The position numbers and the translations under genes were made by a program. Below, in pieces: positions 15,204 through 58,029 of a DNA stretch of 64,000 nt. Origin of the DNA: Ulva prolifera (taxonomy: Eukaryota > Chlorophyta > Ulvophyceae > Ulvales > Ulvaceae); contig CM041202.1 of the NCBI GenBank assembly GCA_023078555.1, forward strand, positions 124,001-188,000, in the 5' to 3' direction. Each line of letters opens with the position of its first letter. The stretch's first letter is position 1. The notes under the pieces are model-generated. The model had not been told where the DNA came from and did not search any database. It saw only the letters and a program-made list of their open reading frames with translations.

Positions 15204-15862
15204 CTAATACTGGCGGGCCCGGCCAGAGTGGCGGCGCTTGTTGTGGACCTTCTTCACAGGCTTGCGTGCCACCTTCTTCGGTGCCCTGCGGTTGTGCTTC
15301 TTTGCAGGCTTGCGGGTGTGCTTCTTGGCGTGTCTGCGGTTGTGCTTCTTCGCCGGCTTGCGGTTGTGCTTCTTGGCCGCCTTGCGCTGGCGGCGCTTGT
15401 GAGCGGGAACCTTCTTGTGGGGAGCCTTCTTCGTTGGGGCAGGGGCCTTGACATGGACGGGTGTGGGGGCGGGGGTTGGGTGCGCAGGGGCGGGGGCTGG
15501 GTGTGTGGGCACGGAGCCGCCGGGAATGACCTCGGTGGTGGTGGCCACAGGCTCGATCTTGGCAGTGATGTCAACAGACGCGACACAGTTGCCGTGGGCG
15601 TCGACAATGGAAGTCACGATCACCTTGGCAATCGCCTCGGCGTAGGTGGTGGCGATGACGGTCTCGACCTTGTCATACACGAAGAAGGAGTCGGGGCCTG
15701 CACCACATAGCACGTCATTGGTGTACCTTCCTCGCCGTGGGTTTTGGTATGACAGGCGGAGACGCTATGACACGTGAAGATGCAGCAATGTGACTAAACC
15801 AATAGAAGGGATCCGGGAGGTGACTTGTGCAGTAGGCATGCAGGTACAGTACCACATTTACC

Positions 15863-15900
<38 letters not shown>

Positions 15901-17629
15901 CTGCGCACTGGTCTGCGATAGTCTTCGAGGTGGCGGTGGCGAGGACCTCGGCGAGGCTGTCGGTGAGGGCCGCGATGTCGACGCTGCAGCCCTCAAGGCA
16001 GGTGGATGTCGCGGAGGCCAAGCCCTCGGCGAACGCGAACGCAACAGCCTGCACCGCGACTTGTGTGTGTCAGATGGTGTGGTAAGTGCGTTTGTCTAGA
16101 CAAACTTGTGCTGGCCTGAGGATCTGGGCCAGCTGCGCAGTTGCGAGCTGAGGATCTGGCCTGAGGACAAGCCAACACTGCCAATCAGAACAGACGACGG
16201 AGCAGATAATGTCAAGTTCAGGTTGAAGGGCTGGCAGGGCTGATCGATGCACTCACCTTGGCGGTCTTGGTGATCTCGGCTGTGCCGGCGACGCAGCCGA
16301 AGCCTGAGCCCTGGACGTAGCAGCCGGACAGGACCTCGGTCATCGCGATCGCCATCGCCTTGGCCACAGCTGTCGCCTCGATGGAGAACGTGCTGGCGGC
16401 AACGCCCGAGAGGTCAGCGCAAGCCTTGGCGGCGGTCTCGGCTGTCACGGCGACGATGGCATCGGAGACAACGGCGCCGGTGGCGCCACCGAGGTTGATC
16501 TCGCAGGCAGCGACGGAGAGAGGGCCGCCATGCTCGCCGGCGATGGCAACAGCCTCGGCATTACCAGAGCACTCCTCGTCAGCTGCGAACGCGGTTGCCA
16601 TCACGCCGGCAAACGCATCGACAGTGACGACCTTGATGGACTCAGTGACGACGTTGAGGGCGGCGACGAGGTCCGTGTCCTGGGTGATGCCGTCGAGGGT
16701 GAACTGGATGTCGACGGTGGCCTGGAGGAAGATCTCCTGGAAGGCCTGAGCGACGGCGATGCCGGCAGCGTGGCACTTTCCGCACGTGGCCGCCTCGACT
16801 GCTGCGGAGGCGTAGGCCTCGGCGATGGCGAGGGCCTCGGCGTAGGCGGCGGAGTGGCCGTTGACGTAGAAGCTGCCAGTGCCGGAGGAGGAGCACTCGG
16901 CGGTGATGTCGACGATGGCGACGGCGAAGGCGGTGGCGGAGGCGGTGGCCGCGATCTGGAAGGTCTCGAACTCGGGGGGGGAGTCGCTGCAGAGGGCGGC
17001 GCTCACCTCGAGTGCTGCATGCATGCGTGTTCGTCAGCAGTCGGGTGCGCATGCATGAATGCGGCAGCGTGATCGATGTGGTGATGACTACCCTACTGTC
17101 TGTGAGCGTGCGCTGCGGCGGGGAATCATGATGCATGTACACGTCATCATGTTCGAACATGCATGCGCTGGCAGACGTCTACCCAGTGAAGGCTGCAGGG
17201 TCGGTTGGCAGTGTAGGGGCGCACCGATGCTCTGGGCGACCTCGGCAGACTCGGAAGAGGAGTGAGATGACGATGACACGTGGCACCGGGTGTGGCTGCC
17301 TGCATGGACAACACAGCTGTTGGCAAGTGTGCAGTTTTTGGCAGCAAAGCGATGACAGGCAACGCTGTCCGGAAGGCGCCTTCTTCGCCTTCAACGCTGT
17401 CCGGAAGGCCGGCCGGATGGAGGCATCATTACAAAGGAGGCATCATTGATCATGATGATGAGGGCTCAACGTTCGATTCAACAGCGACTCTCGGAGGCAA
17501 GCATGGCGTGGGTTGAATTCGAAGCGATGAGGCATGGCGGCGAGGCGTACCACCGTGCGGCTTGGCGGCGAGCGCCTGGCCGGAAGATGCCAGCAGGGCT
17601 GTGCCCGCGAGCATCGCTTGCACAAGCAT
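15204..17629 (-). CDS. Family S gene 1: secreted Ala-repeat protein with polybasic tail
   Basis: Four exons (17554-17629, 16257-17014, 15901-16048, 15204-15697), all GT-AG with matching phases, give 491 residues. Exon 1 is a signal peptide (MLVQAMLAGTALLASSGQA). The secreted part starts with an Ala-rich domain built from about ten segments of the form AxAxA...C (for example TAVAKAMAIAMTEVLSGC). A Thr/Pro/Ala linker and a tail of KKH, RKPAKKHNRR and similar basic repeats follow. The paralogues are at 25755-29423 and 45754-49684. Exon 2 (758 bp) equals the exact sum of their exons 2, 3 and 4 (129+515+114), so two introns are absent here with no indel. I do not recognise the family. Secretion plus a polycationic tail suggests a wall, mucilage or mineral-binding role (inference). 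Intron 3 begins GTG followed by about 33 C on the coding strand. Confidence 0.85.
15865..15897 (+). repeat. Poly(G) run, about 33 bases
   Basis: A homopolymer on the plus strand (poly C in the transcript) placed directly after the 5' splice site of family S gene 1 intron 3 (donor bases 15895-15900). Its length may be imprecise because of sequencing. Confidence 0.9.
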
Positions 17630-20479: not shown

Positions 20480-20484
20480 TTACA
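20480..20484 (-). terminator. TGTAA polyadenylation signal of family W gene 1
   Basis: TGTAA followed by GTCTGCTCGC on the minus strand, about 150 bases past the stop codon. The W gene at 40571-44673 has the same arrangement. Confidence 0.6.
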
Positions 20485-20635: not shown

Positions 20636-23600
20636 CTACACCAGGAGGGCCATCTGCTGAGGTGAAGCGTAGCCATTGCTGCCGGGGGTGCCTGGGGAGC
20701 GGGGGGAGGAAGCTGCCGAACCGAACTTGCCCCACAGCCATGACGTTGCCAGATCCGGGGACGAGGGCGTATGCAGGGCTGGCATCTTGGGCAGGGCGGG
20801 CACCTTGGGGAGCACGCTGAGGAGGCGGCCGCCGAACCAGCCCTGTGGTCGCTCCATCTCCACGCATGGGGAGGGGGCCTGGGGAGGTGCATTGTGGAGG
20901 AACACATCCTGAGCAGGTGCTGCGCCGCCCCAGGATTGGCTGCCGTACCCGGGGTCGACGCAGTACCGTCCACTGTCGGCGAGCGCAGTGGTCGCAGGTG
21001 AACCCCATGCATTGGCACTGTCGCCGTACCCTGCAGCAGTGTAGTACTGCCCGTCCGCGGCGGCGGCCGGGGCTACCGGGGGGGGTGTCTGCCATCCAGA
21101 GTGCTCACCACCGTACCCTGGAGCAGTGTAGTACTCACCGGCGCCGGCAGCGGCGGCGGACGGCCCCCATCTGGAAGCGTCGTAGCCATACTCTGGAGCA
21201 GCGTAGTACTGCCCTTGGTCGGCAGCAGAGACAGCAGGGGTGGGAGGGGCCGGGGGGCCCCACGCGTTGCCCCCGCCGAAGGTCGCAGGCATCGCAGCGA
21301 CGATCTTTGCAGGTGCAGCCGCTGGCAGGTTGGCCCGGGCGCTCACGATGTGTCCCTGGTGGTTCGCACCCTGCAGCAAGCACGGCACTGATGTCCTGTA
21401 CAAGCCTCAACGCATGTGCGGTATGTTGTCAACAGTACGTGCAGAGAGCCGCGCGTGCCAACAAGATTGGCATTGCGTTTCGTGCGATCGAACGCTGCAT
21501 CTATCGCGGATGTCGCGGGAGGGTGGCGCACCAGTGAGAGCTGTGCTTCGGCGGCGTCGGCGCGGGCGGTGGCGGCATCGCGGGCGGCCTCCAGCTCCTC
21601 CTGCTCGGCGTAGATGGCTGCAATGGCCTCGCTCGAGCTCTCCTGGGCGGCTGCCAGGGCGGCGACGGCAGCGGCGGCTTCGGCCTGCAGATGGCATGCC
21701 TGGTGTTAACATGGCCGGAGGAGTTTCTACACTGCGTGCTGGTGACGGGCACGGGCGTATGCATGGGGTCCATGCAGCTTACCTCAGTGCCATGTCTCAC
21801 GTTATATACACCACCGTCTCAAATGGCCACAGGTTGGCGTGTCAGCTTCACTGACGCCGATGCCGCGTAACAAAAATGGTGCAGAGTATACGTAAGAGCG
21901 AACAGGGCGGCACACCTTACATATGGATCAACATGGATCAAAACAGGTCGTGTATCTGCAGCGGAAGGAGGCAAAGCGCGTGCATGGAAAGCCCGGTGGC
22001 TCAAGCACTGCCGTGTCAGAAGTCTAGGGGATATTGACGGCCTTGGCGGGTCTAATGATCTCAAAAGCGAAGCAAGAACCGCGAGGTGTCACAGAGGGGG
22101 GGCGGCGCACCTTGGCGGCGCGGGCCTCCTCGGTCTTCGCGTCAAGGGCAGCCTGCAGGGCGGCCTCGCGGTGGCCAGCGGCGGCGAGGGCGGCGGCGTG
22201 CTCGCGCAGAGCTGCCCGCAGCCGCGCCGCTTCATCATCGTTTCCCACCGCGACCGGCGGCACAGCAGGGGCAGGAGCAGCTGTTGGTCCATGGCCTGCA
22301 ACACCGGAACGGAGTCAGTGCAAGAGCATGAGCAAGGAAGCTGTAACAGAGCGAGTGATGCCAAGAGCACACAGCAATTTTAATGCGAAAGTGATCCTGA
22401 GGATAGCAATTCTACAAGCAGCAGTCAGCAGACTCTAGGATAGACACATAAGCACAGACACCGGGAGGATGCCATGAGTAGAATTTGATAGCGGGAGCTG
22501 CACAAGGGTAGATGGATGCTGCCTCTGAAGAGCAGCCAGTCTAAAACACACACTCCATGGCATAAAGCGGACTGTCTTGGTGAGCCGACAAGGGCATGCG
22601 CTGCCACCAGCAGCGCCAGATCGTTTGGTCACATGCCAGTGAAGACACACCAGACTCGGTGCCTGTGGCAGCACCAGTTTGTCCGGAAGCGGCTGTGCCC
22701 TTAGCAGACGCAGACGTCATCTGGTGTGAGTCCTGTGCGGCTGAGAGAGGTGACGTGGAGATATTCTGGCCTACCCCGACGGGATCGCCGCTGCCGTGAG
22801 AAGCCCCTTCGGCCTCGGTCTCCAGCATTGTAAGCGCCTCAGCCCTCTCTTCTGCAGGTTCTGGCGCACTCCCTGAGCTGTCTCCGCCCTCTGTCGATTC
22901 ATCGGTGGCGTACCCTCCCATAGAGGTGAGCCACTCGGCGGTCGCAGTCCCTCCGGCCATAAGTGGCGCCCCTTCGGCCGGCAGCGGCGCCGTCGGCCAG
23001 CCGTGTGTGTGCCAGTGTGCACAGTAGGCATCGATGAGGGCACCGTCGTCGGGGCTGCCCTGGCGGAAGGCCTCCCACTCAGCGTCGCCCCAGGAGCCCT
23101 GCTGGCCCCACAGCACCATGTGCAGGCAGAAAGCCTCAGTGCCGCCCTCACGCAGCCACGCCCAGTAGTCTGCTGCCCAGGAGCTGTAGTCGTACAGCAC
23201 ATGGGGACTGGGGATGTCTCCGTTGTCAGGCTGGGTCGCCCACCAGCAGTCCTGTGCAGGAGACTCCGGAACAGACGACGCCCCATCAGGAGATGAAACT
23301 TGTGTCGCATGCTCAGTCTGGACGTTGGAGTACGATGCTTCTACACCGTTGTCCCAGGAAGTCGCGCTTGGAGCTGTACCGCATGGCCCAGGTGAGGTCG
23401 TGGAGGCTGCACTCGGAAGCGGGACTGTGTCTGCATTATGAGACTCTTCAACCCCCTTCTGCACTCCGAGAGGAGAAGGAGCAGGATCACCATCATGAGC
23501 AGCACCTGCAGGAGGACGCAGCTACTGAGTGCAGCAATGTGTTTCCAGCAGTCGCTTTGCAATTTCGTTGCCATCGACAGCAGTCGCTTTGCAATTTCGG

Positions 23601-24723
23601 TGAAGGTCGCTGTCAGGAAAAATAAAGGCCTTCACGTGCTGAATTCAGCGGAAATAGCTGGATTACTGTGCAGCAGCAGCATGAAGAGTGGCATCCGCGA
23701 CTGATGTTATGGCATGAAGTGGATCGCCACTGCACGTCCAATGTTCATTACAGTATAGGCATTATTTCAAGATCGATGAAGTGCACTTTGGTATGCTCGG
23801 TGGTTGGTGGCAGATGCGCTCCCGTGTCGTTCACGCAACATTGTAATTCGACCGCACGCGGCAGCAAACTAAAAGGTCCACACCGTTTACTTCATAAGTT
23901 TTCGAGACTGCATTTTCACCCTTTGCGTGCCATTCAGATCCAGATCCCCTGCACGCGAGCGCTCGCGTCAACGACGTGCCTATGCCTTCGCGGCGATGGG
24001 TGGAGGGCCACAAAGAGACATGTCAGCAGTTAAACATGACTACACAGAATAAATGCATCAACAGCCGAGTTTCTGTCATCTACTGAACACGCGCAGCTGT
24101 GCAGCATGCCCTATAGCTATGGAACAATCAAACGGAGCGCGGATCCGGAGCTGCTTGCCATGGACAACCCCACTACGTATAAGGCACTGAGAATATGAAA
24201 ATGTGATTACGGGGGATGAAAATGAACGGTTTTGCGATGCCAGTGTCGTACCGGCCAGTAGCTGATGTCAAGCCTGTTGCAGCAGTGCGCGGCATGCCAG
24301 AAGCATGCGCACAATCTCCGGATCCCGCAAGCGTACCGTCCACGTCAGCAGCGTCGCCACCAGCCTGCAGCACACACCGATTCACTCTCTGGCCGGCACT
24401 CCATCAGAGCCAGCATAGATTATACGACCGTCTGCGTGTCATGTACAGCGTTGCCCGAGCTCGAGCGCGGTGGTCTTCAGCAAAACTCGAACACCCTCGA
24501 CGGGGGGCCGGCCTTCAAGTTGGCAGTGTGCGGTGCCACAGCTCACAGGCGGCGCGCAACAAGAAACCCGCTCACAGGCGCAGCCATATGAATTTGAACA
24601 GCAGAGGCCACGAAGCTTCATGTGGGGGTGTCGGTGCACGCCCAAAGAGCGGGAACGTACCCTCGCAGCCGCCTGGCGCTGGCGGATGGAGGAGAAGGCG
24701 TTGGAAGCAAGTGGCGAAGTCAT
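20636..24723 (-). CDS. Family W gene 1: Trp-rich domain, coiled coil and YG/W repeats
   Basis: Seven exons (24661-24723, 24252-24364, 23884-23948, 22651-23505, 22111-22295, 21532-21684, 20636-21370) with GT-AG ends and consistent phases give 722 residues. The start MTSPLASNAFSSIRQR is shared with the copy at 40571. There is no signal peptide. Residues about 166-278 form a Trp-rich domain (DCWWATQP ... HVLYDYSSWAADYWAWL ... CAHWHTHGWP). Residues 366-478 are an Ala/Glu/Arg coiled coil. The last exon has degenerate repeats (GEYYTAPGYGGEHSGWQT) and ends with GWFGGRLLSVLPKVPALP, SWLWGKFGS and SPQQMALLV. I do not recognise the family. It is head to head with the S gene at 25755. It forms one arm of an inverted duplication with 40571-44673. 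Exon 3 uses a donor six bases further on than the aligned site in that copy. Confidence 0.85.
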
Positions 24724-25754
24724 CTTGGGATTTATGTGTATTTGTTGAGAGTGTCTTTCGATTGGATGGAGGCAGGCACGGAGGTGGATGCCGGAGTGCC
24801 GACAAGCTTGATACAGGAGCCGCCTAGGATGTATCGCAAGGTTATTCAGCAGCTGCAAGTTGGATCGATGGAAGATGGTTGGTAGTGGAATAGTGAAACT
24901 GAAGTTGTAAGTATACCCAATGCCACAGTCTCAGGCCTGTGCGGCAGCGTTTCGCATGCTTTTGTAGCTCCAGTGACGGATATCCGACGCGAGCATCGAA
25001 TGACATGCCGATCAAGGGACTGCATGACGCTTGAATGCGTCACGGGCTGCACGTGACAGCAGGCGAACGGAAGCACATGCGGCTACAAGCGAGCGTTGTG
25101 CATGGGGCCCTTCGCTGACTCGAGATCTGCTATGGCTATATGCATACACCTCGAGATATCAGATCCATGTTTGCCTCGAGAATTGTTCGACGACGTTTCT
25201 GTTGGCCGCGACGGATGTCGCTGGCTGCGCCTGGCACTGATGCCACAGGCCCAGAACACACATATATAGACATCCGCAATGCTGAAAATGCCAACCTACG
25301 TTTCCACCATCCATCCCAGCGCTTGGACTAGCAGTGCGCCGTCGTGCAAGTGGGAGGGCAGGTGCCTCTAAGGCTCTCTTGAACTCTTAAGCCTCCGGAG
25401 AACCGTCTCAAGCTCACCGCGGGTCACGCGTGAACCGCTGGAAGCTTGGCCAAGCTTGGGTGATCTCCAGCTCGACTCGGCTGTCTGCTGCAAAGGTGCG
25501 ACACGCACATTGCCGGCTACACGTGTACACCTCCGAGGTTGTGAGTCACACAAACCCAAAGGCAGATCCTAGAGCGGTCGACCGGATGTTGAACACGGCG
25601 ACGATCGTTGACATGGCTCCGACAACCTCTCTCATCTGCTCTTTCGCTGTGTTTGTCTCCACCCGGCTACTCTGGCCATCTGCTGCTGCGAATCATCGCT
25701 GATATCTGTCACGATGCAGATTTCATATTTCTTGGGCATGTGCAGGCGCTCCGG
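24724..25754. promoter_or_regulatory. Shared upstream region of divergent W gene 1 and S gene 2
   Basis: 1031 bases between two head-to-head start codons, with no ORF supported. It contains CTCGAGAT at 25119-25126 and 25150-25157. The same 8-mer lies upstream of the other two W genes (40478-40485 and 49806-49813). A bidirectional promoter is inferred from geometry only. Confidence 0.45.
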
Positions 25755-28700
25755 ATGATCTTGCAGTCGCTGTTTGTGGGTGCTGCCCTCCTGGCAGCTT
25801 CTGGCCAGGCCGTAGGCGCCAAGTCACTGGGTACGCACGCTCAGCAACCTCGTACATGCACCATGATCATGCATTATCAATAAATGGTTGCTCACACGTC
25901 GAGCTTTCACATCACGATGCCCATTGCTGGCACCTCCGACGCTGATGTCCATATGTATGGATGACGTCTGTGACGAGTGTTAGATACACATGTGTATGCA
26001 CAGGATGTATGTGCGGCGCACGTTGTGCGGCTGCAAGCCTATAGGTCGAGCTCAATATGTTGCTGCATATGCCGATCAACACAGTGCTTGTGTAAGAAGG
26101 GCGTGGGTGGTTGTGCAGAGAGTGTGTCCAGTTGCAAGGTGTCCTCCATCACCTCCGCCTCTTCTGAGTCAGTGAAGGTTGCCCATTATGTTGGTACGAC
26201 TCTGCCAGCAGTACCACTCCCACCCACATGTATCTGACAGATATGTCTCACATGTACACCCGGCCCCGGGCCGTAACAGCAGAGTCGACAGCTGCTGCCG
26301 TGCACTGCTGCCATGCACATGTTTCCTGGCTCTTCAAAAAGTTCTTCTGAACATATACGAAGCACCTGTTCTAAACTCTTTCATTTGTAAAGAGTTGACT
26401 GGCACTTGAAACATATAGTACAAAAACTCACAGCCCCAAAATGTTATTTCAGTTTTGGGCACTTTGATCGTTTCTGGCATGTCCTGAAAATTTGCACCTG
26501 GGCACTCTGATATGTCTGGCCGTCCAGCAGCATGCATGCATGAGCCCGCCAAACACCGCGCATGCATGCAGCCACCAAGGTCAGCGCAGCCCTCTGCCAC
26601 AACGGCCCGGCCAAGTACGAGCACGACCACGCCGCCGCCTACGCCACGGCCACCGCCGTGGCCGCCGCAATCGTGGACATCACCGCCGGCTGCTACACAA
26701 GTGCGCACACCCCCCACATCCGTGTGTGCACATACATGTACATACATTAAAACACTAATAGTATTGTCTTCTGCGCCTGTTTACATATGCACAGGCCAAA
26801 TGCATGCGCCTGCAGCCATGACATGATCAATATCTCTGTATTCCTTGAACAATAATCCCTCTGCAGCATCTCAGTGGCCCACATGTGAGGTGCTGCCGCC
26901 TACTAGGTGCTGCCGCCTACTATAGTATGCGGTGGTTATTTGCACGGCATGTCCTCATCTACAGGCTGTAGTGTGCCTTCATGTACACCGATGGGCACCG
27001 GCCGGCACCACATCTAGTGCCTTCGCAAAGGCAACGTCCCCCGGCTTTGAGATAGAGTACTTGTCACACCTACTCTCATAGATGTGGCATCGCCAACGTT
27101 GCACCGCCTGCAGGTGGCACCGGCACTTTCAAGGTGAACGGCCACTCCGCCGCCTACGCCGAAGCCATCGCCATCTCCGAGGCCTACGCCGACGCCGCCG
27201 TCTCGGCCGAGACCTGCGAGAGCTGCGCCGCCGCCGGCATCGCCGTCGCCGGCAGCTTCCACGAGATCTTCCTCCAGGCCACCGCCGCGGTCGAGTTTGC
27301 CTTTGCGGGCATCGCCGACAGCGGCGACGTGGGCGCCTCGATCGAAATCATCACCACGTCCATCAAGGAGGCGACGGTGGTGGCGTTCGCCGAGGCGATC
27401 GGCACGGCCCGCGCCGCTGACGGGGCGTGCTCCGGCAGCGCAGCCGCAAACACGGTGGCCGGCGTGGTGGGGGGGCCGCAGAGTCGCGCCTCGTGCAGGA
27501 TCGACGTGGACGCGGCTTCAGACTATGTTGTGTCCGACGCGCTTGTGGCTGTGACGGCGGAGCTCGGGGAGAAGGCGTGCTTTTACGGTGCTGGTGTGGT
27601 GACAAGCACCTTCTCAGTTGAGGCTATGGTGTGCCCTGACTCCTTACATCGGACATATTGTATCATGCATTAAGTGATCCAGTATGTAATGACTAAGTAT
27701 CAAATAGACAAGTAGGTGACTCGCAGGCGGTTCACAGCAAGCATGATGTAGACATATGCCCCTGTTTCAGAGAGACAAAGCTCACAGTCTGATCGATAGG
27801 AATGCCTGGCTATAGCTGCACATGCACAATGCGAAGGCAATCGCTGCGGGCGGCACCAGCATTGCCTGTCATCCAGCGTTTGTCTGCAGGCCGTTGCCAC
27901 GTCCATGGCGCTTGCGATGACCGAGATCTCGTCGAGCTGCTACGTCGAGGGCGAGGGCTACGGCTGCGCTGCCGGGAAGGGGGACATCACAAAGACCGCC
28001 ACGGTACGTAGCTGCTACCTGTTGCAGGCCAGAAGTTCACATTGGACGCATGCTCGCCTGAATGCGAGTACAATTGCAGCTGCATGAACAGCATGGTGCC
28101 CCGCCGCCGGCCGAGTGTTTGGACAGGTGTGTAGGCAGATGGGCGAGCGTATGTCACACGTTGTGGTACTATGGTAGTATCAGCATGTTTTGCAATGCAC
28201 TGACAGCAAGGCATCGCCTTCACGCAGCCTTCATGGAGACCATGTGCCGCATCAACACTGCCGTCGATGCCAGTTTCCAAGCAACCCGCCATTCTGAGCT
28301 CTGAACGCTGGGCATTTGCTGCAGGCTGTTGCGTCAGCGGTTGCAGAGGGCATCGCCGTGGCCACCACCGACTGCATGAAGGGGGGCTGCACCGTGGTGG
28401 CGCACTCTCTGTCCGCAGCGCTCGCCGACGTCCTCGCCACCGCTACCTCCCAGGCCATGGCTCACCAGTGCACAGGTGTGCCCCACGCGGCTGGCGTGAC
28501 AACATGTGAGCGCACACAGCTGCCCCAACTGCGTTGCGTCGCCATTCAAGTTGTGGAGTAGCTCACTGTGTCTGCCTGATAGCCACGTGCTGTTCTCCGG
28601 AGTGCACACTCCCTGTTCAGCTCCAATCTTCACACTTCAAATCCAGCGCTGAAAAGTTTGCCGCGAACAGTGGTAGTGGGCACATGCCAATGCCGAAACA

Positions 28701-30682: not shown

Positions 30683-30713
30683 GCAATCTATATATGTGCG
30701 TGCCTTCGCTGCA

Positions 30714-31304: not shown

Positions 31305-32044
31305 ATGTGTACCACGTTTTCGACAGAGAATCGCGATTAGTGCACAGGACATACGGTCCTGCGGGAAAGGCAGTTTCGAGTGCACATACAAGCAGCATGT
31401 CATCAACTGTACACCGTGATTCCGGAACAAGACAGATTTATTGATGTGTTCACACGAGCTCGTAGGCAGGGGTGGTCATGGCTTGCATAGGCATATCATA
31501 GACATTGCTTACATTGATATCTCGTCACCTTGGGTGCCCTCATCATGTCCATAAGGAACGATGATACTACGATCACATGTAGTGCCACCTCTAACATGTC
31601 ATATACTCCACTCATACATTTAATCACGATCACCGCATGTGTACACTTTCTTTCCGAGCCCACGTTGGTATACAACTAATCGACATACTTCTTCCGGGTA
31701 ATCTTCAACGCGAGGCCAACCTTCTGGCTCCTCTTATGGGTGGGATGCAACGGAGATTCCGCTGTCCCCTCCGTTTTTAGTGCGCCAAGGATGAATTTCT
31801 TGAAGTACTCGTAGTCAGCCACGTACAGTCCGTCTTCTTGTGCCCACTGCGCGGCCGGCTTCATCGTGCCCACGCCGTAAGCAGTCCTCGCTCCGAGTCT
31901 GGACAACTGCATGGATAGGTTATGTGTCAGTGGCTTGCGCTCATTCACGCGCACTGGTATGTTGTTGCCCAATGTGTTTGTTTTGCAGTAGCACAACGTC
32001 TACATCAGATGGGTCTGTCAGGGAATGTGGGGCGCGGCGCCCGA
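31305..32044. other. Intergenic, no supported gene
   Basis: An unrecognised minus-strand frame covers 31676-31996 (contains GALKTEGTAESPLHPTHKRS). Composition and isolation give no support for a gene. Confidence 0.35.
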
Positions 32045-45753: not shown

Positions 45754-48700
45754 TTAAGCGGCATGTCCACGGCGAGGGCGCCTGCGAGGAGCACGGCGCT
45801 TCGCTGACTGGGCCCCCTTGCGCTCCACCTTGCGGCCGCCCTTGCGGAGGCGCTTCTGTTGGACCTTGTGGCCACCCCGACGGCCTCCTTTGGGCACATT
45901 CTTGCGTCCACCCTTCCTGACCGGTTTGCGCACAGGCTTGCGAGCAACCTTGCGGGCACCCCTGTGGCCACCCTTCTTTGCGACCTTCCGGCCGCCCTTC
46001 TTGGAGCCCTTGTGGCTACGCTTGGCGTGGCGGCGCTTGGGGTGTGACGACCTCTTGCGACCGCTCCGCGGGGCAGGGGTGGGGCGTGTGGGGGCGGGTG
46101 CTGGCGGAGTGTGTGCATGGGCGGGGTGTGGTGCATGAGTGTCCACATGGCCACCTGGGGTGTGCCCGGGCGCAGGGGTGGGTGTGGCGGGGTGGACCGT
46201 GCCTGAGCCGGTGTCGACAGACACGTGGCAGCGGCTAGAGGCGTCGACGGTGGCGGTGACAATCGCCTCCGCGATGGCCACGGCGCTGCCGTCGACCACC
46301 ACGAGCACCGTCTCCTCGTAATCAAAGCGCGAGTCCGGGCCTGCAGCAGCCGAGGCCCTCACGTACTTGCACAGAAGAATGTACACAAAAGGCAGCCAAT
46401 GCCATGCAGTGCTTGTCGAAATTTGAAATAGCAGGTGGACGGTTGGGTCAAGAAGATAAAGCAAGTACGCGTTCGCTGCAACAGTGACAAAATTGTCAGG
46501 GGCTCCGGGTCTGGACTCATGTCTGCTAGTACAGCTAGCACTAAACAAACACATCAGAGTGAACATGCATGGGGCGAACACCAGCGCAGGTCATGACCAG
46601 CTGCCAGGGCTGCACATTTTGCAGTGCACAACCTGATGCACGTGTGGCAGGCCGTACGTGTGGCAGGCCGAGAGGGCGGGGCGCACCAGTGCATTGGTGA
46701 GCGATAGCCTGGGAGGTGGCGATGGCGAGCACGCTGGCGATCGCCTGCGACAGAGCGTGGGCGTTGACGGCGCAGCTGCCTGCGTAGCAGTCCGACGTGG
46801 CGACTGCGAAGCCTTCCGCAAAGGCGCCAGCAACCGCCTGCACAGCAGCGCGCACAGTGATGCATCATGTGTACTGTAAAGTACGAGTGAATCTGGATTC
46901 ACGGAGCCGTATCCTGAAGATCTAGAGGGTGTTGACTGTAGAGCGTGGGTGTGCGGGGCCTACATGCATATGGCAAATGCCCTAGCCGGGCATGCGGTGG
47001 TGGATATCCGTGTACGCAGCTGCAGGATGTAGGTCAAGGTGATGTGGGGGCCTGCACCGGCACTGTCATAATATATGCATGTACCAGCTTCGATCGAAGC
47101 TTCAAGTTCAGCTGATTACGAGTAATTGGGTCGAGTGTGTGCACACGTGTGGGCAGGCACACACCTGCGCAGTTCTGGTGATCTCGACCTCCCCGGCAGC
47201 GCAGCCATAGCCCTGGCCCTTGATGTAGCAGCTCGACGAGATCTCGGTCATCGCGACCGCCATAGCTTTTGCTGCTGCCTGCAGGCACAGCCCTTGGTGC
47301 TTGCTAACGTAGCACTGACCACGGAGGCTACTAGTAGCCGGCCACAGCTGCAGGCTGAGGATCATGCATACAAAAACATACAGCACATGTACATATGAAG
47401 TTCTGTACATATGAAGTTCATACGAAATTGTCGATTCCATTCCGAGAGAGTCTGGAAAATGCCAGTGCGATCGACGGGAGTATGCCCTGGGGACCAGCAC
47501 CGCATGTGCTGGCGGCAGTTCCAGCCGGCCTTGGCCACACTGCCGACATCGGTCGACTACATCACTGATGGAAGGTGTAAACATGCGGACGCACCACAGC
47601 CTCCACAGAGACAGACGCCGCCACCAGCCTGGCCTCCTCGACGCACGCCTTTGCTCCCGCCTCCGCCGACGCCACCACCACGGCATCGGAGACGATGTAC
47701 ACGGCAGACGCGTCCAGGTCAACCACGCACGAGGCGCTGTCCTTTGGCCCCCCCTCCACGCCGGCGGCCGTGTTCGCGACGGCCTGTCCCGAGCACTTGC
47801 CGTCTTCGGCGCGGGCAGATGCGATCGCCTCGGCAAAGGCTTCCACTGTCGCCTCCTTCATGGACGTGGCGACGAGTTCGTACGCGGCATCAACGTCGGC
47901 GCCGTCCGCGAAGCCGGAAAAGGCGAACTCGAGGTCGGAGGTGGCCTGGAGGAAGATCTCCTGGAAGCTGGCCGCGACGGCGGTGCCGGCGGCACTGCAG
48001 CGGTCACAGGCGTGGGCGGAGGTCAGAGCGCCGGCGTACGCCTCGGCGATGGCGACGGCTTCGGCGTAGGCGAGGGAGTGGCCGTTGATCTCGAACGTGG
48101 CGGTGCCGCCTGCAGGCAGTGGCTACAGGGTCACCCACCCTCACGTTGGACCAGACCACTAGTGAACCCTGTGTTGCTTTCGAGCAAGAGGAGCAGCCAC
48201 GTAATACGAACTCTGACTGCGTTCAGAATGCGCAACATGTGTATATCTGCCAGACCATCGACACCAGGCTGATGTTCCAGTGGAGCCAACATGCATGCAT
48301 GTGGCGCGCAGTGTATGGGCCGCAAGGTCCCAGGGATACTATCAGTAGCATGACTGGGGCGTGCGCACTTGCGTAGCAGGCAGCTGTGACGTCCACGATG
48401 GCGGTCGTGAAGGCTGTGGCGGTGGCGGTGGCGGCTGCGCGGTAGCGCTCGTGCTGCGCCGGCCCTGGGTGGCACAGGGCGGCGCTCACCTCTGTGGCTA
48501 CATGCATGCAGAGCCGTTATTGAAAATATGCATGCATGAGGCTGAAGCATTCTAGAAGTTGAACTTCCGGACCACCTGAAGACACTTGGCCGGTTTAGAA
48601 ACCCAAAACCCAAATGCACTTTATGAGTTTGTGCTGACGGTCTGATACCACTGTGCATGCATGGGTGTATGATGCTGATGGCTGCTGTAGCAAAATGACT

Positions 48701-49684
48701 GTACCATGGATGCAACTGAACCTGGTTTGCTGCCGAGCAGAGTTGCATTAGTACGTTTCGTGATAAAGTACGTTAAGCAAAAATACGCGTATGGTACGTT
48801 GGCTATAATCAGGGGGGGTTGAAAAGTACGCTGTATAGGCTACATTGCTGGCTTGGCGCCGGAGGCGCCAAGCCCGTGATGACCAGCCGTGGTGCCACGG
48901 TCACTGTCATCTGTGCTTAGGCACATTATTGCAGAGAATAGTACAATGAACTAGTAGTCAATCAGATGATCAGGTTACTCAGGTTCATCATGCAATGCAA
49001 GGGATGTTCAAAACCTTCTTTGGCCTTGTGGCTAGAGGTGCACCACAGTGCAGAGCTCCAGGCTCTCCGAAATCGGCCAAGTCCGAAACGTACGCGCGTA
49101 CTGTACGCTGATAAAGTACGTAAGCATAAAATACGCGTATTAAACGTACCGAAATCGAAAGATACGCGTATTAATGCAACTCTGCTGCCGAGCATGCACT
49201 GCGCAGAGGGGCATACCAACATACTGGGCGACCTTCGCAGACTCAGCAGAGGCGGCGGAGATGGAAGAGACCGAGCATCTGGTCACACTCTCTGCAAGCA
49301 CACCTTGCTTGTCAGCACATGCATCGTTGCGGCAGCACTTGTGAAACTCGTATGGTATGTGCTTGCTCCAGTACATGGAGTCTATCGTTTGCATGGAGTA
49401 CAACGTACACAACGTGTCATGCAGAGACAGTGTGCTAGAAGCGGTTGTTGCGATGTGTCTGAGACCTCGTGCGCACGCGTACGAGGGATTGCCCTGCAGG
49501 ACTCGGAGTTCACAACAAACTAGGCCGTGTATCTATTGTGGTGCGGATGACACGAGGATATGTGCGATATCATCGTTGGCAAGGCGTTGCAAGATCGAGC
49601 CGCACCGTAAGGCTTGGCGGCGAGGACGTGGCCGCTCGAAGCCGCCAGCACGCCAGCAGCCGCGACGAGAGTTTGCAGTAGCAT
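45754..49684 (-). CDS. Family S gene 3: secreted Ala-repeat protein with polybasic tail
   Basis: Six exons (49606-49684, 48369-48497, 47595-48109, 47165-47278, 46687-46837, 45754-46340), GT-AG, phases consistent, 524 residues. The signal peptide is MLLQTLVAAAGVLAASSG. The Ala/Cys domain follows (GHSLAYAEAVAIAEAYAG; SFQEIFLQATSDLEF; AVAMTEISSSCYIKGQG; EGFAVATSDCYAGSC), then GPDSRFDYEE, a Pro/Thr/His linker, and a tail of KKGG/RKPVRK-type repeats ending RRRPRRGHAA. Exon lengths 2-5 are identical to S gene 2. Intron 1 contains a complete hAT MITE (48738-49184). The gene is head to head with W gene 3 (start 50502), mirroring the S gene 2/W gene 1 pair. The tail, rich in Lys, Arg and His, would be strongly cationic outside the cell. 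Function unknown. Confidence 0.88.
48738..49184 (-). mobile_element. hAT-type MITE in intron 1 of family S gene 3
   Basis: 447 bases with terminal inverted repeats starting CAGAGTTGCATTA, flanked by the perfect 8-bp duplication CTGCCGAG (48730-48737 and 49185-49192). It has internal subterminal repeats of the type ATACGCGTAT and GTACGTT. It is the uninterrupted relative of 3847-5462. There is no coding capacity. Strand is nominal, given as the host gene strand. Confidence 0.85.
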
Positions 49685-50501
49685 CCTGAAAGCCTGCAGC
49701 TGCTAGAAACTAGCTGTAGCAGCCAGGGTTGGCTTGGCTCAGGCACTCGGGGTTGCGGTGTCGGGCGGTTTGAGGTTTACACCACGGAACCTGCACCGCT
49801 GCGCCCTCGAGATCTCTAGATATTAGCGCTAGCAACGCTACACAGCACGCACGGGACCCGAAGCGCTCCGACTTGAATTCATGAAGAAGCAACACAGGGT
49901 TGGACAGGATATTGCAGAGCTCTACCGTGGCACTTGCTTGCTTGCCACGGCTTTATATATGTACGGTTTCGCCAAACATGGCTGCTGCAGTCGCAAGGCC
50001 TCGCCATCGACGCAAACGAGCGTTGGTGAAGCTGCACGGCGTCCTAATGCATTCAGCGCATGGCGATGTTCGATCATTCGAGATGAACACGCGTATCCAC
50101 CGACGTGCCGCGACAAGTTTCAGGCAGGTCATGAGTCATGACGCTCCATGCATACACTATATTCGTCATCTCTGAGGTATGAGACCCTGTGATCCACCAG
50201 TTGATGGAACGATTTCACGGTGTGCATGGCTCTGCACGGTTTCCGCAACACCCGAGCTGAAAGCCCAGGCGCAGCCAATGAGACCAGGAGACACAAAAAC
50301 CCCCATACACCCTGTTTGAGCTATACTCTCTGATCAGTGGACTGGCTGTTGTTACAAGCATTGGCTGCAGGCCTTGGTAGAAAACCCCTTCGCGCTCTAG
50401 ATCTCCCTCAGCTTCAAGCTTGTATTATCGTACGTCCACCGGTACCTCAGCAACTGCCAACGAGGAGCTTCAACACTACTCTCTACCACATCTCTTAAGA
50501 A
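49685..50501. promoter_or_regulatory. Shared upstream region of divergent S gene 3 and W gene 3
   Basis: 817 bases between head-to-head start codons. No ORF supported. CTCGAGAT is at 49806-49813. The geometry matches 24724-25754, suggesting a bidirectional promoter (inference). Confidence 0.45.
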
Positions 50502-53500
50502 ATGGATTCGCTGCTACCTTTCAACGTCAGCCCCTTCACCCTCATGCGCCAGAGCTTCGTCCCGGGGGTGCGTGCTTAAGCTTGCGTTGATAGCATCGGC
50601 CAAACCCTGACACAAATTCTCCATAACGTTTGGGTTGGGGCTTTTTTACGGGTTGATGTGATGTCCGCGGGTGGTACCCAGCTGCAGCCCTGTCCCACGT
50701 CCGACGTGGACACGGCGCTAGCAACAAGGGTCGCGAAAGATCCCTTCTGCGCAATTGCAATCGCTGTCAACATGAACACACATGACAGAAGGAGATCGCG
50801 GAGGTGCTGCGTAGGTCAAAGATAGATTCATCAAGGATGTCCGTGGCGACGAGCAAGCTCATCGAGTACGTAAACCCAGCAGCAGCAGCGAAAGCGAGCC
50901 GAGGCCAGCGGCTGTGAAGGCCGATTTCACACCTCCGCAGCAAGCTGAACTAGTACGAGCCACTGCAGACATGCAGATGATCAGAAGTGACGTGTTTGAG
51001 GGAGAGAGAACGCATTTGATGTATCTTGGTGTTCTGCAGGTTGGTGGACGCGCTGCTGTCGACGAGGAAACGGGTGATCGACGCAATGGCTCTGGAATTG
51101 AGCTCACTGTCACAACCTGCGCAACTCATAGGTACGTGCATTTCACCATACCATGTAACGAGCACGACTGGTTTATCCGGTTCTCCCTTGCCTTCAGCCT
51201 CTTTTGCCGCACAAGTGCATTCATGTTGGCATGTGTGAGCCCACCCGTGCCTCTTGTGTGGCCCACCCGTGCCTATTTCGTGAACTCATTGCCAAACCTA
51301 AGCATCAATCCACTAGCAGTAGAGATTTGAGTGATCCCTGCTCATTTCAGTGCATCCATGCTTGCACATGTCTCCGACGTATCAGGAGCGTCCACGCCAT
51401 GACTGTCTTGCAGAGAACACGATCGCGAGAATGATGACCTTGAGCCATCCGAGAAATCATCTAAGGTACAACATGCTGAAGACTGTGACGGTGTGTTCCT
51501 CTCTTCATCTCTTCGGATGTGCTGCCCGTGGGCCGAGCCGGGCCGGAAGCAAACATTATGTTGCACGCTTCAGTGTTCAGTCGCTGACAATCAGAGAACT
51601 CGTTTGTCTCTGTGCGAATGAATCGTCGGTGCCTTCCAGTCACATCTCTGTAGCGGTATCTTCGCCTCGATGAAGGGTTTTTTATTCTGCGGTCGTGTTG
51701 CTGCTGTCAGTGTGTGCTAAGCCATCGGTGGCATGTGTTCTGAAAGTCTGTAGCATGCAAAGCATGCTTGTGGTGAGAGTGCTGCTTGACCTTGAGTCGG
51801 GTTGAGTGACATGGACACACAGCATGTGTGCTGCTTTTGCTCCCCGCATCTCCAAGAATGAACGTCGTGACTCTGAGCTTGACTGCATTCACAATACAGG
51901 TACTGAAGCAGGAACATGTGATCCCTCTGTTGCTTCAGCACATTTCTCGGCCGAAGAGCATCCCACATCTACATCCTCAGGCAATGCCATCGAGCCAGCG
52001 TCTTCCATTCGCGATAGCTCTGGAGAAGAGCGCCCACAATCTACCTCCCCATCCAAGATCATCGAAGAACGGACATCACGTCCTGACGGACTGACCTGTG
52101 AACAAGCTCACGTCGCCCCAGATGCACTTCCGTCAAATCTCACCTGCGACGGAGCCCTGTCAAGCACTGTTCCTTCTGATGACCACGTCAACACCCCTTC
52201 CCAGCCACTGCTGACTCCCCCAGACGACCCATCTACAACTTCTCCAGGAGACCTCGTCATCGAAGAGGCATGCTCAGAAGCGCTTCCCGGTCCACCTGCA
52301 TCTCATGTTGAAGCGTCAGAGCCAGAGTCTCCTGCAACAGACTGCTGGTGGGCGACCCAGCCGGTCATCGGAGACATCCCCAGCCCCCATGTGTTGTACG
52401 ACTACAACTCCTGGGCAGCAGACTACTGGGCGTGGCTGCGTGAGGGCGGCACCGACGCGTTCTGCCTGCACATGGTGCTGTGGGGCCAGCAGGGCTCCTG
52501 GGGCGACGCTGAGTGGGAGGCCTTCCGCCAGGGCAGCCCCGACGACGGTGCCCTCATCGACGCCTACTGTGCACACTGGCACACACACGGCTGGCCGACG
52601 GCGCCGCTGCCGGCCGAAGGGGCTCCGCTGCTGGCCGGAGGGACTGCGACCGCCGAGTGGCTTGCGACCATGGCCGGCACTGATACGCCACCCGAACAAG
52701 TTGATGGGGGTGTCGAAGACCTGAAGGAGAGCAACGACGACGAGCCCGAGGCGCTGCTGCCGCCAGGGGCAGCCTTCACCGGCCCGACGTCCGCAGAAGC
52801 TGGAGGGGCCGTGGAAGCACTGGGGATGAGTCCAGAGGACACCGGGAGCGATGCGCCTCTGCCGGTAGAGACGGTTTCCGGTGAGGTGGCTGAGGGCCTC
52901 CGAGTCGACGTCTCCGGTGATGTGGCGGCGGTGTCTTCTTCAGAGCCCGGGCCGCCGGAGACGCCATCTGGTGAGGTGGCTGATGACCCACCTCATGAGG
53001 GCCTCGACGGCAGCGATGATATGGAGGCGGTGCCCACTCCAGAGGTCACCCCGGTGGACACTATGAGTGCTGGAGACGATGCCGGCGAAGGTGACGCCGA
53101 GGCTACTGCAACAACGCTCGATGAGGGTGCGCCTTGTGTTTCTGTCGACACGTGGCTTGTTCGCTGGCATGCTTTGTTCGCTATCAGCCGTGGACCAGAC
53201 CCATGCGCGACCTTGGCGCATGACCTGATCTCATGGCGGCCCTCATCCACTAGTAGTATACTGTCTAGAGGTCGTGAGGGCTCTCGAGCTGGCTTGTCAC
53301 CTTTTCTCGCACACGCGGTGCTGCTGGCAGACGGCCACGTGTGTGTACACCGAGGCGCTAGCATCCTGGTCAGCATTTGCTTGAGACCACTCACGTTTAC
53401 TTTACGTGGACACATAGATAGAAATGGCCTGCATCTCTCGCATTACTGCAGGTGAGGACGCCGCCATACCTCCAGATGCGATCGGCAGTGATGGCGCGGG

Positions 53501-56500
53501 TGTGCCTGCCTCTGAGCCACTGTTGTCGGCGAGTGGCACCGAGCCCGCCACCGTCCCGCCGCACTGTGTGCTCGTCACGGTGCTGGTGGAGAAGGAGGAG
53601 GAGGTGGCGAAGCTCCAAGTTGCACTGGAGGAACAGGCGGCCCTGCACGCCGCCGCCCTCGTCGCCACGGGACAGCGCGAGCGCGCCCTGCAGGCTGCAC
53701 TCGACGCCAAGACCGAGGAGGCCCGCACAGCCAAGGTGTGGTGCTCGTGTGTGTATGTGGTTACAAAGGACAGAGGCCGGGCACGCAATCGGCTCTGGGA
53801 ATCCACTCGCAAACCCACTCACTCAGACATGGCACTAGGCCGGGCACACGGGCTCGCACGACAGCCCTACCGGCGACACCTGCCTGTACGTGTATGCGGC
53901 TAGGTACGGCGTGACTGCCTTGTTGTCGCCGAGGAGCTAGTGTCTTGGGGGTCGTGTCGGTCTGCGGCCACGCACGTGAGCGCCGCAGCGCCGCCGTGTG
54001 ACGCGGTGTCGACAGCCGACGACTCTTTCGAGGTGGTTTGTGCTGGTGTCGTTGACACCCGACATCGCGCCTTGTCCCGCTTTGCTTTGAGGCAGTGTGC
54101 TGGAAGCAATCACAAAGAGCCGTGCGCTGCCATAAAACGCCATGCTGACATCGAGGGGTACCTGTGCCTTTCAGTGTGAGCAGTTGCCGCGTGTGATTGC
54201 AGGCCGAGCTGGAGGCGGCGGAGGCGTACGCTGCTGTGGAGGAGGTGGTGCTGCAGCGGCGGGCGGCCGTGCAGCTGGCAGCCGCTCGGGAGGGGCGGCA
54301 GCGCGCGCAGGAGGCGTTTGCGGCCGCGGAGCGCCTCCGCCTCGAAGCTGACGGCCGCCGCGCCGAGGCGGAGCGGTGCTTGGCTGAGCTGCAGGCCCGG
54401 CTCGGCCCCGCTGAGGTGCGTGGCTGCCTTCCGTGGCCGAGTTTGTGTTGCGACTTGTTACTCACAAGGACAAAGCGAGCGAGGCAGGTAGCACCGCGGG
54501 CAACAACCAGGGGAACCCCACACCCACGCAACCAGCGGCTATGTGTTTGTGTGCTTTTGTCGCCGTAGTCGGTGCTGTGCCTGCATGCTTGATTGGCCGT
54601 GCTGACCGCAGAGATCCTGTCAGACCTGCAGGGGCCATGAAAGCACATACATGCATTGTACAAATGTGGAGATACACCGGCCGGTGGAGGCGTGCCTGGC
54701 CGTGTAGCGATCTAGCTCGTCGTCGTGGCGTGTGGCTGCAGCCCGCATGCAGCCCGTGTTGCACCACCTAGCTGTGCACCTCACTGTGGCCCCGTATTGC
54801 ATTGCCTTGACGCTCGGCGGGTGTGCAGGAGGCTGTGGCCTCTGTCACGGAGCGACTCCGGGCAGCAGAGGCCGCCAACGTAGCTCTGCGGGAGGAGCTA
54901 CAAGCAAGCCGCGACGAGGCTGCTTCATCACAGGTGGGTCCCGGGTCCCACCCACCGACTGGACATGATTGTATATCCCTATATAATATAGTAATATATA
55001 GGTTTTTGTATGTAGATGATATAAGATACACACGAAGCACGTCTGTGCTACGTCCCGTTGGTTGCGTGCGTGTGTGGGGCCCTGTTTGTGCCCTGCCGTG
55101 CTACGTGCCTCTCTGGTGTTGTCCTTGTCACGCACAACACATGCTCCTCGTACTTGTGCCGTTGATGCCAATGATCTTGTCCTGCACTGGCATCAAGCCT
55201 GTCCCAGTGCCGATAAAGCTGCATCGACATCGAGCCTGTGTGTTGACCAAAAGGATAGTATGCCGACCGGGCCCTGCCCATGTGGAAGTCGAGCACACAG
55301 CCTCAGTCACATGCGGCCGAGTGCAGGCGCAGGCAGACACTGCCGCCACGGAGGCCTCGGCCGCTGTCACCGCCGCGGTGGCCGCCGCACAGGAGAGCTC
55401 GACCGCGGCCATCTCGGCTCTGTATGCCGAGCAGGAGGTGCTGGAGGCCGACCTCGAGGCCGCCACCGCCCGCGCCGACGCTGCCGACGCCCGCGCCGAC
55501 GCCGCCGAACTCGAGGTGCCCCTCCCCTCCCCCCCCCCCCCCCCCCCCCCCCCCAAACAAATCCCGCGCGGCGTGAGCTCTCCAAACTGTAAGCTTTCAA
55601 TGGAGTGAGTGAGCTGTGTTTTTCGCGCAGTTTACCACCTGGTCCAGCATGTGATGATTCCCCAAGCTGTGCAGCCAGCACGTAACACGCACCCGCATGC
55701 TGTGGTCAGTGTCTGTCAATGCTTATGCATGAAAGTGCCGGCCTGTTTCCAGTGTGCTGGCGAGGTGTGGTATGCCGTGCTGAGGTTGCTTTTGTACTCA
55801 GCATTGTGTCGTGGCTCGCACTGCGAGGACCAATGACATGTACTTCGCCACCATTGGGGCATGTGTTTTGCCATCACTGAATGCATCGATATCTGGTGCG
55901 GTCTGCAATTAGAGGACACGTGCGTCTTGTTCTTACCTGTCACTACACGACTTTGATCGTTGCTGTGTGCCCTACAGGCTGCGCGATTGACTGAGCAGCT
56001 CCAGGCAGCTGCGCCTGTGGCCGCACCCACGCCACCCACAGCCGCACCACCTCTGCCGTTGGATGGCGGCGAGGCCACCGAGTGCGCTGACCCCGACCTG
56101 GCGCCACAGGAGGAGCAGTCGGTTTTTGCTCATCCACGGTTTGCTGCTGGGGCCCCTGCGTGTGCCGAGCCCGGGCCTGCTGCTCCGGCTCTTGAAGGTG
56201 AAGCATCATTCTTTGCTTCCACCGTTGAGGGGCAGTGCTTCGCTGATCCTGGCACCTGCGGCGAGCATGCCGCATGGGACGCGGCCACCCCCGCTGCCCC
56301 CGCCGCCGCCGGAGATGGGCAGTACTACGCTGACTCAGGGTACGGTGAGCACGCCGACTGGCAGACGGCTGCCGCCGCCGCCGCCGCCGGAGATGGGCAG
56401 TACTACGCTGACTCAGGGTACGGCGAGCACGCCGACTGGCAGACGGCCACCCCTGTCGCCCCCGCCGCCGCCACCGGAGATGGGCAGTACCGCGCTGATT

Positions 56501-58029
56501 CAGGGTACGGCGAGCACGCCGACTGGCAGACGGCCACCCCTGTCGCCCCCGCCGCCGCCGCCGGAGATGGGCAGTACTACGCTGATTCAGGGTACGGCGA
56601 GCACGCCGACTGGCAGACGGCCACCCCCTGCGCCCCCGCCGCCGCCGGAGATGGGCAGTACTACGCTGATTCAGGGTATGGCGAGCACGCCGACTGGCAG
56701 ACGGCCACCGCCGCCGCCGCCGCCGGAGATGGGCAGTACCACGCTGACTCAGGGTACGGCGAGCACGCCGACTGGCAGACGGCCACCCCCTGCGCCCCTG
56801 CCGCCGCCGGAGATGGGCAGTACTACGCTGATTCAGGGTACGGCGAGCACGCCGACTGGCAGACGGCCACCCCCTGCGCCCCCGCCGCCGCCGGAGATGG
56901 GCAGTACTACGCTGATTCAGGGTATGGCGAGCACGCCGACTGGCAGACGGCCACCGCCGCCACCGCCGCCGGGGATGGGCAGTCCCACGCTGACTCAGGG
57001 TACGGCGAGCACGCCGACTGGCAGACAGCCACCCCTGTCGCCCCCGCCGCCGCCGGAGATGGGCAGTACTACGCTGATTCAGGGTACGGCGAGCACGCCG
57101 ACTGGCAGACAGCCACCCCTGTCGCCCCCGCCGCCGCCGGAGATGGGCAGTACTACGCTGATTCAGGGTACGGCGAGCACGCCGACTGGCAGACGGCCAC
57201 CCCCTGCGCCCCCACCGCCGCCGGAGATGGGCAGTACTACGCTGATTCAGGGTATGGCGAGCACGCCGACTGGCAGACGGCCACCGCCGCCACCGCCGCC
57301 GGAGATGGGCAGTCCCACGCTGACTCAGGGTACGGCGAGCACGCCGACTGGCAGACAGCCACCCCTGTCGCCCCCGCCGCCGCCGGAGATGGGCAGTACT
57401 ACGCTGATTCAGGGTACCGCGAGCACGCCGACTGGCAGACGGCCACCCCTGTCGCCCCCGCCGCCGCCGCCGTAGATGGGCAGTACGACGCTAACTCAGG
57501 GTACAGCGAGCACGCCAACTGGCAGACGGCCACCCCCTACGCCCCCGCCGCCGCCGGAGATGGGCAGTACTACGCTAACTCAGGGTACGGAGAGCACGCC
57601 GACTGGCAGACGGCCACCCCCGCCGCCGCCGGAGATGGGCAGTACTACGCTGACTCAGGGTACGGCGACACCGCTGAGCACGTTCCGCCGCCTGCTGATT
57701 CTGCCCCGGCTGCTGAGCTGCAGCCTCAGCCTTCTGCATGCCCACCTGCAATGTCCCCCACAGTCCGCACCGATGGCAAGACAGCAGCAGGCACGAAAGG
57801 CTGGTTCGGGGCCCGCATCTCTGACGTCCTGACAAACACCGCTGCCTCACCGACCGTGGGCAGCGCTCCGCTGCAGATGAGCTGGCTTTGGGGTAAGGCA
57901 GGGGTGGTTCCGCCAGGGCAGCAGGCCTCCCCGCGGTCACCCGGAGCACCAATGCCCGAGACGCCTCGACCGGGAACACCGCAGGGGTCCCGCTTTGCAT
58001 CACCAGAGCAGCTGGCCTGCATGGTGTAG
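50502..58029 (+). CDS. Family W gene 3: largest member, 16.5 Tyr/Trp repeats
   Basis: Nine exons (50502-50567, 51040-51131, 51414-51490, 51900-53126, 53452-53735, 54203-54415, 54829-54933, 55327-55515, 55978-58029), all phases agree, 1434 residues. The start is MDSLLPFNVSPFTLMRQSF. The Trp-rich domain (about 226-338) is nearly identical to the other two genes, although the flanking acidic regions are unrelated. Residues about 520-751 are a long Ala/Glu coiled coil with two exons more than its paralogues. Residues 863-1315 are 16 full and one partial copies of a 26-29-residue repeat (GDGQYYADSGYGEHADWQTA plus an Ala/Pro spacer). The end keeps GWFGARISDVL, MSWLWGKAG and ASPEQLACMV. Acidic Tyr/Trp repeats with flexible spacers suggest multivalent assembly, perhaps a condensate or filament (inference). 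There is no signal peptide, so the product is probably intracellular. Intron 8 begins close to a poly(C) run. Confidence 0.88.
53757..53881 (-). mobile_element. LINE 3'-end copy in intron 5 of family W gene 3
   Basis: The reverse complement matches 5240-5369: GTGCCCGGCCTAGTGCCATG, then GAGTGGATTC, then GGCCTCTGTCCTTTGTAAC. It is antisense to the host gene. No clean target duplication was located. Confidence 0.65.
55529..55554 (+). repeat. Poly(C) run, about 26 bases
   Basis: A homopolymer starting 14 bases after the exon 8 donor of W gene 3 (intron begins GTGCCCCTCCCCTCC). It is similar in placement and sense to the C run in S gene 1 intron 3. Confidence 0.9.
56311..57669 (+). repeat. Coding tandem repeat, about 84-bp unit, 16.5 copies
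   Basis: The unit encodes GDGQYYADSGYGEHADWQTA plus a spacer (TPVAPAAA, TPCAPAAA or TAAAAA). Spacer types recur in blocks (units 8-11 resemble 12-14), showing expansion of multi-unit segments. Variants at the end (YDANSGYSEHANW) are older. A plus-strand frame of 470 codons in another register is a by-product of the repeat. Confidence 0.95.

Follow-up and report, generated by a model that had tools for sequence, protein, structure and literature searches.

The 64,000-nucleotide stretch of Ulva prolifera DNA analyzed here, called the window, covers positions 124001-188000 of contig C7 in a genome of 88.9 Mb and 44 contigs. It carries six predicted multi-exon genes belonging to two unrelated families, designated S (S1-S3) and W (W1-W3). 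A first-pass annotation had proposed such genes, and all six could be modelled with GT-AG introns only, one open frame each and zero internal stops. Its description of the exons was correct overall, except that a 75-nt exon is added here to each S gene. Its count of three members per family is true inside the window, whereas the genome holds at least 46 S-module loci and at least six W-domain loci. Within each family, tblastn comparisons gave E-values from 5.6e-48 to 9.3e-171 for the core S exons and the N-terminal W exons, and the S tails matched at about 1e-20 or lower. Two S genes lie head to head with W genes; the divergent gaps, proposed earlier as 1.03 kb and 0.82 kb, measure 1031 bp between W1 and S2 (24724-25754) and 817 bp between S3 and W3 (49685-50501) from ATG to ATG.

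S1 (15204-17629, minus strand) is predicted to encode 517 amino acids in five exons (17551-17629, 17225-17299, 16257-17014, 15901-16048, and 15204-15697). S2 (25755-29423, plus strand) has seven exons in its predicted model (25755-25830, 26119-26193, 26572-26700, 27114-27628, 27890-28003, 28325-28475, and 28786-29423) for 565 amino acids, as does the predicted S3 (45754-49684, minus strand; 49606-49684, 49217-49291, 48369-48497, 47595-48109, 47165-47278, 46687-46837, and 45754-46340) for 549 amino acids. The intron phases are concordant among the three genes, S1 lacking two of the introns. Comparison of S2 with S3 revealed an 83-bp stretch conserved within intron 1, which corresponds to the added exon: 75 nt long, of phase 1-1, and present in S1 (17225-17299, minus strand), S2 (26119-26193, plus strand), and S3 (49217-49291, minus strand).

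The S proteins begin with a conserved hydrophobic first exon (M-I/L-x-Q...ALLAASGQALAAK) ending in (A/G)AK, a possible secretion signal; a paralogue at 444 kb has a similar first exon. The body consists of about 430 Ala-rich, acidic residues with 14 aligned Cys and an isoelectric point (pI) of 4.3-4.7, and is joined by a Pro/Thr/His-rich linker to a tail with a pI of 12. The tail comprises 83 residues in S1 (47 Lys/Arg/His and no Asp/Glu), 126 in S2 (64 and 3), and 104 in S3 (53 and 1), and its DNA is partly composed of tandem repeats with 24- and 48-bp units. The earlier view of S as a secreted cationic protein agrees with these features, the appearance of secretion being by eye, the tail basic and the body acidic.

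S-module loci were collected from the genome with two queries at E ≤ 1e-3, same-strand matches within 2.5 kb being merged; the counts of S-module, W-domain, and CBM1-like matches are all lower bounds. The loci, at least 46, are distributed on C1, C2, C3, C4, C7, and C9, and many are clustered. Paralogues were read as sequence in 20 stretches of 10 kb plus short loci, and two types of C-terminus were recognized. The module is followed by a Lys/Arg/His-rich tail in L033, L034, L035, the 473-kb gene in L036, and L045; with S1-S3, the open frames read show a polybasic tail at eight loci. In L038, L041, L044, and L046 the module is instead followed by a spacer rich in Pro and then by a small Cys domain, here called CBM1-like for its resemblance to the fungal-type cellulose-binding domain CBM1, with the pattern C..C....R.C.G....CC....C..R...F.QCR..G......WDG(S/T)I..C. 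This domain has at least 74 matches in the genome at E ≤ 0.01, 63 of them at E ≤ 1e-3. The 63 were used for counting placement, and the other 11 of the 74, above E 1e-3, were left out, as were S matches above that value. A CBM1-like domain lies downstream on the same strand within 4.5 kb at 27 of the 46 S loci, against 0.2 expected under uniform placing, and its distance from the module there is 0.45-3.7 kb. One of the dropped matches (C1:11298380, E 0.006) sits downstream of an S locus with an unassigned C-terminus. A common Ala/Cys module, a variable C-terminus of either CBM1-like or Lys/Arg/His type, and tandem repeats in the tail DNA characterize the S family.

In a module tree of 20 rows, the eight polybasic and eight CBM-type rows are split by a single change, and none of 500 shuffles was as low. 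The branch separating them is weak (support 48/76, present in 54% of bootstrap trees). The three S genes of the window group together (96/92), adjoined by the genes at 444 and 455 kb (85/87).

The W genes are W1 (20636-24723, minus strand; seven exons, 722 amino acids, pI 4.56), W2 (40571-44673, plus strand; seven exons, 747 amino acids, pI 4.54), and W3 (50502-58029, plus strand; nine exons, 1434 amino acids, pI 4.05), all predicted models, with concordant phases at the first five introns. Their common layout is a short N-terminal part, a Trp-rich domain, Ala-rich coiled-coil-like exons, Tyr/Trp repeats, and a conserved C-terminal end (GWFG..., SWLWGK, ...MV/LLV). The repeats of W3 include an array at 56259-57668 on the plus strand (84-bp unit, 17.1 copies, DGQYYADSGYGEHADWQTATP..-type repeats), which gives 17 DGQ units with aromatic repeats 25-29 residues apart. 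The net charge of the W proteins ranges from -46 to -178. The start of W1 and W2 is rich in Ser, Ala, and Arg without acidic residues, while that of W3 contains an acidic residue. W had tentatively been described as acidic and intracellular; the acidity is borne out, and for the location it was found by eye that a secretion signal is absent. From the sequences it can only be said that W1-W3 appear to be a family of acidic coiled-coil scaffolds with aromatic repeats, separate from S.

The Trp domain was searched for with two different queries, the second of which also gave a match of E 0.11 that was excluded. At least six loci were found: W1-W3 and single loci at C3:6.28 Mb, C8:5.06 Mb, and C7:5.25 Mb. 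The last of these paralogues (L031/L032, C7:5.24-5.26 Mb) has long Ala-rich coiled coils, and in the neighbouring frames SFFG/FFD and WG-rich repeats are numerous and recall the motifs of trafficking adaptors. A weak S match in L031 (E 3e-7) was not counted as an S locus near W, because it falls within the frame of Ala-rich coiled coil that belongs to the W paralogue itself.

Neither family corresponds to a described one as far as Pfam, NCBIfam, and PDB sequences go, in agreement with the first-pass annotation. When S1, S2, W1, and parts of W3 were scanned, no Pfam or NCBIfam model scored above its cut-off; in S1 and S2 neither CBM1 (PF00734) nor a Pfam domain of pherophorin or extensin-type hydroxyproline-rich glycoproteins (HRGPs) was matched. 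With at least 46 loci, the S family is absent from Pfam, judging from the sequences scanned. PDB sequence searches with single S1 and W1 queries gave no match, and profiles of S (E 0.75) and W (E 0.3 and 1.2) matched PDB at chance level. No relative of the S module was confirmed in viral_contigs, and none of the Trp domain in viral_contigs or genome_contigs. No paper naming either family turned up in the literature searched, outside which lie subscription papers such as that on the Ulva mutabilis genome.

The history of the cluster was examined through non-synonymous (dN) and synonymous (dS) divergence. Over full length, dN is lower than dS in all six within-family pairs. The S pairs show dN of 0.28-0.43 and dS of 0.68-0.91, calculated with S models that still lacked the 75-nt exon. 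W1 and W2 are near-copies of each other in inverted orientation (dN 0.10 and dS 0.21 over 708 codons), whose similarity extends through the introns and slightly upstream of exon 1; their upstream regions share 84 bp at 69% and 34 bp at 79%. Both are distant from W3 (dN 0.42-0.43, dS 0.92-0.94), and W3 is old by this measure save in the Trp domain. Within that domain, synonymous differences between W1 and W3 occupy 13 of 76 sites versus 277 of 472 elsewhere (p 8e-12); between W2 and W3 they occupy 10 of 77 versus 292 of 486 (p 2e-15). When the domain is compared with the three unlinked paralogues, the proportion of synonymous differences is 0.50-0.74, and therefore its synonymous sites are not frozen. 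The W1 tract at 22918-23277 (minus strand) is 93% identical over 360 nt to the W3 tract at 52314-52673 (plus strand), while the flanks are diverged. The simplest account is that this Trp-domain tract of about 360 nt was apparently homogenized between W copies by gene conversion; the pattern would be no different if an exon had been copied recently. The W genes may have come to share the locus with S through local, partly inverted duplications.

The preferred reading, to which an about even chance is given, is that S1-S3 are secreted wall proteins with a swappable C-terminal anchor, and that the W genes encode separate scaffolds, locally duplicated, with a homogenized Trp domain. The S module would be exported and disulphide-bonded, and its C-terminal part would anchor it to the wall. 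The CBM1-like ends may bind cellulose, and the polybasic tail with its pI of 12 may bind the polyanion ulvan by charge. Ulvan is sulfated and is described in PMC10762512 as the main soluble wall polymer, making up to 30% of the biomass. In this role S1-S3 would cross-link the ulvan gel, or glue it, through their positive charge. In favour of the reading are the frequent CBM1-like domains behind S modules, the polybasic tails, the separation of the two types in the tree despite its weak branch, the similar hydrophobic first exons, and the 14 aligned Cys. It is a more tentative proposal, possible but clearly on the doubtful side, that the Ulva wall is built with a large lineage-specific Ala/Cys family whose exchangeable end is either cellulose-binding-like or a repeat-grown polycation cross-linking ulvan.

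Several observations weigh against the secreted wall protein reading. On four C-terminal domains of the paralogues, the Pfam CBM1 model (PF00734) scored 12.3 and 14.8 bits for two and nothing for the other two, below the cut-off of 20.6. The PDB matches of the CBM1-like profile have E-values of 0.03 and 0.036; that its only two chains, one annotated as a glucuronoyl esterase and the other as a xylanase, are both matched in what we take to be CBM1 counts for the reading. Module and CBM1-like domain are assigned to one gene by their spacing and shared strand, not by spliced models at any of the 27 loci, and the C-terminal type of the remaining 11 of the 46 loci is not assigned. S2 scored 18.6 bits against Pfam New_glue, an insect-type glue (cut-off 31), which was taken as composition. 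Structure predictions from the window sequences alone were too poor to use, with a mean predicted local distance difference test score of 36.3 for the S module and 49.5 for the Trp domain. Furthermore, a secreted polycation would be compatible with a role in the wall, in adhesion, or against microbes alike.

The first-pass annotation had suggested duplication of a functional S-W pair; as a rival reading, the two families would be co-regulated from shared divergent promoters and duplicated as a unit. S and W genes twice stand head to head about 1 kb apart, which speaks for this, as do the opposite charges of the S tail and W and the matching copy relations, which are (S1,S2),S3 by the tree (S1+S2 93/83) and (W1,W2),W3 by divergence. 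Linkage of the families elsewhere in the genome, however, was found at none of 43 other S loci and none of three other W loci: where a contig carries both families, these S loci are separated from the closest W by about 268 kb or more, and two of the W loci from the closest S by 1.8 and 2.8 Mb; the other S loci and the third W locus are on contigs that lack the other family. Unlinked homologues in relatives, with uncorrelated expression, had been named beforehand as a sign against the pair, and in a sense the paralogues of this genome already provide the unlinked copies. The only sequence shared by both gaps is one match of 13 bp (E 0.03), and no S match was found at 29.5-40.5 kb, within the roughly 11 kb upstream of W2. 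The ages of the duplicates disagree as well (dS 0.77 for S1-S2 versus 0.21 for W1-W2), unless gene conversion rejuvenated W1/W2. As S-W linkage is missing genome-wide, pair duplication was rejected as the main reading. A direct partnership is also hard to maintain because S and W are predicted in opposite compartments: no secretion signal was seen by eye in the W proteins. Genes placed head to head need not function together, the neighbourhood looks like a local accident, and the functional pair is considered quite improbable.

Other roles can be considered for each family separately. Secreted, repeat-bearing polycations are typical of wet adhesives and Ulva spores are well-known foulers; the polybasic S proteins could be adhesives of spores, rhizoids, or holdfast specifically rather than general wall components. 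The separation of the polybasic subfamily from the CBM1-like one in the tree is in favour of this role, while the predicted compartments speak against W and S as a cement pair, and the adhesive role is regarded as unlikely. A function as cationic, antimicrobial surface defence would suit proteins that look secreted, are Cys-rich, carry a tail of pI 12, and derive from locally duplicated and diverged genes; yet a structural role is indicated by the acidic body with its 14 Cys and by relatives with a CBM1-like end, and the tails lengthen by tandem repeats and not by amphipathic design, which leaves defence improbable. For W, a plastid scaffold such as an Ulva pyrenoid linker was considered. The start of W1 and W2 resembles a transit peptide by eye, and the 17 aromatic repeats of W3, with their spacing of 25-29 residues, fall within the 20-120 residues used in linker searches (PMC11570498). 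According to the same paper, the linkers of different algae have no common sequence. The strong acidity of W, the acidic residue in the W3 start, and the very different repeats of the paralogue at C7:5.25 Mb nevertheless make a pyrenoid linker very improbable.

If the more tentative proposal of a lineage-specific family with exchangeable ends is true, S1-S3 would supply a protein so far missing from the ulvan gel or from the adhesive of Ulva. The 46 loci with two anchor types lead to a concrete test: which type binds cellulose, which binds ulvan, and in what tissue. A family with two anchors would be relevant to green-tide seaweeds, to biofouling, and to materials made of ulvan. At the W genes, the locus offers a clean case of apparent gene conversion confined to one domain between inverted copies.

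Other features were observed in the window. An open reading frame at 8989-9198 (plus strand), 6 kb from S1, is Pro-rich with a terminal CBM1-like Cys domain and is probably a piece of another wall-protein gene. Open frames at 5828-7822 on the plus strand contain a part that is rich in Cys and looks secreted, as well as a long run of Pro, with no match in a Pfam scan. A 47-bp unit occurs in three perfect tandem copies at 12876-13017. Between S2 and W2, a minisatellite at 35254-37738 has about 26 copies of 94-bp units with a higher period of 382 bp. An array at 32036-33219 is composed of 60-75-bp units, each with a 27-bp inverted repeat of 13-bp arms (GAATGGTTGGTGG-G-CCACCAACCATTC), and related 49-bp units are found at 38158-38256. 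The exact 27-mer has 497 copies in the genome (232 and 265 by strand) in dispersed arrays, versus 0 for a backwards-read control. An Rfam scan of the window gave zero matches. Elsewhere in the genome, the plastocyanin exons are identical to PDB chain 7pcy at 45/45 and 50/50 residues, 1iuz being second with differences. The 7pcy plastocyanin comes from Enteromorpha (Ulva) prolifera and the 1iuz protein from Ulva pertusa, which points to U. prolifera or a very close relative. The light-harvesting family PF00504 has 38 matches in the genome, and the one checked resembles green-lineage light-harvesting complex chains in PDB.

The S family can be compared with several known systems. With green-algal HRGPs, pherophorins, and extensins it would share secretion and, in the CBM-type paralogues, Pro-rich spacers; in contrast to them, the S core is Ala/Cys and not Pro/Ser, and S1 and S2 have no Pfam match to any of these families. 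The C-terminal domain in the CBM-type paralogues follows a Q-C-x-G ... CC/C ... C ... N-x-x-(F/Y)-S-Q-C frame that resembles CBM1 (PF00734), but it differs in an additional Cys pair, a WDG(S/T)I..C extension, and a Pfam score below the cut-off, and S1-S3 carry a polybasic tail in its place. Like silaffins and the cements of mussels and worms, S is a secreted-looking protein with a repetitive Lys/Arg-rich segment; unlike them it has a separate acidic 14-Cys domain, the sequence comparison here covering Pfam and PDB only. W resembles EPYC1/CsLinker and SAGA1/2 in combining disordered-looking aromatic repeats or a coiled coil with a compact domain, but differs from them in its strong acidity and in having neither CBM20 nor a demonstrated motif for binding Rubisco.

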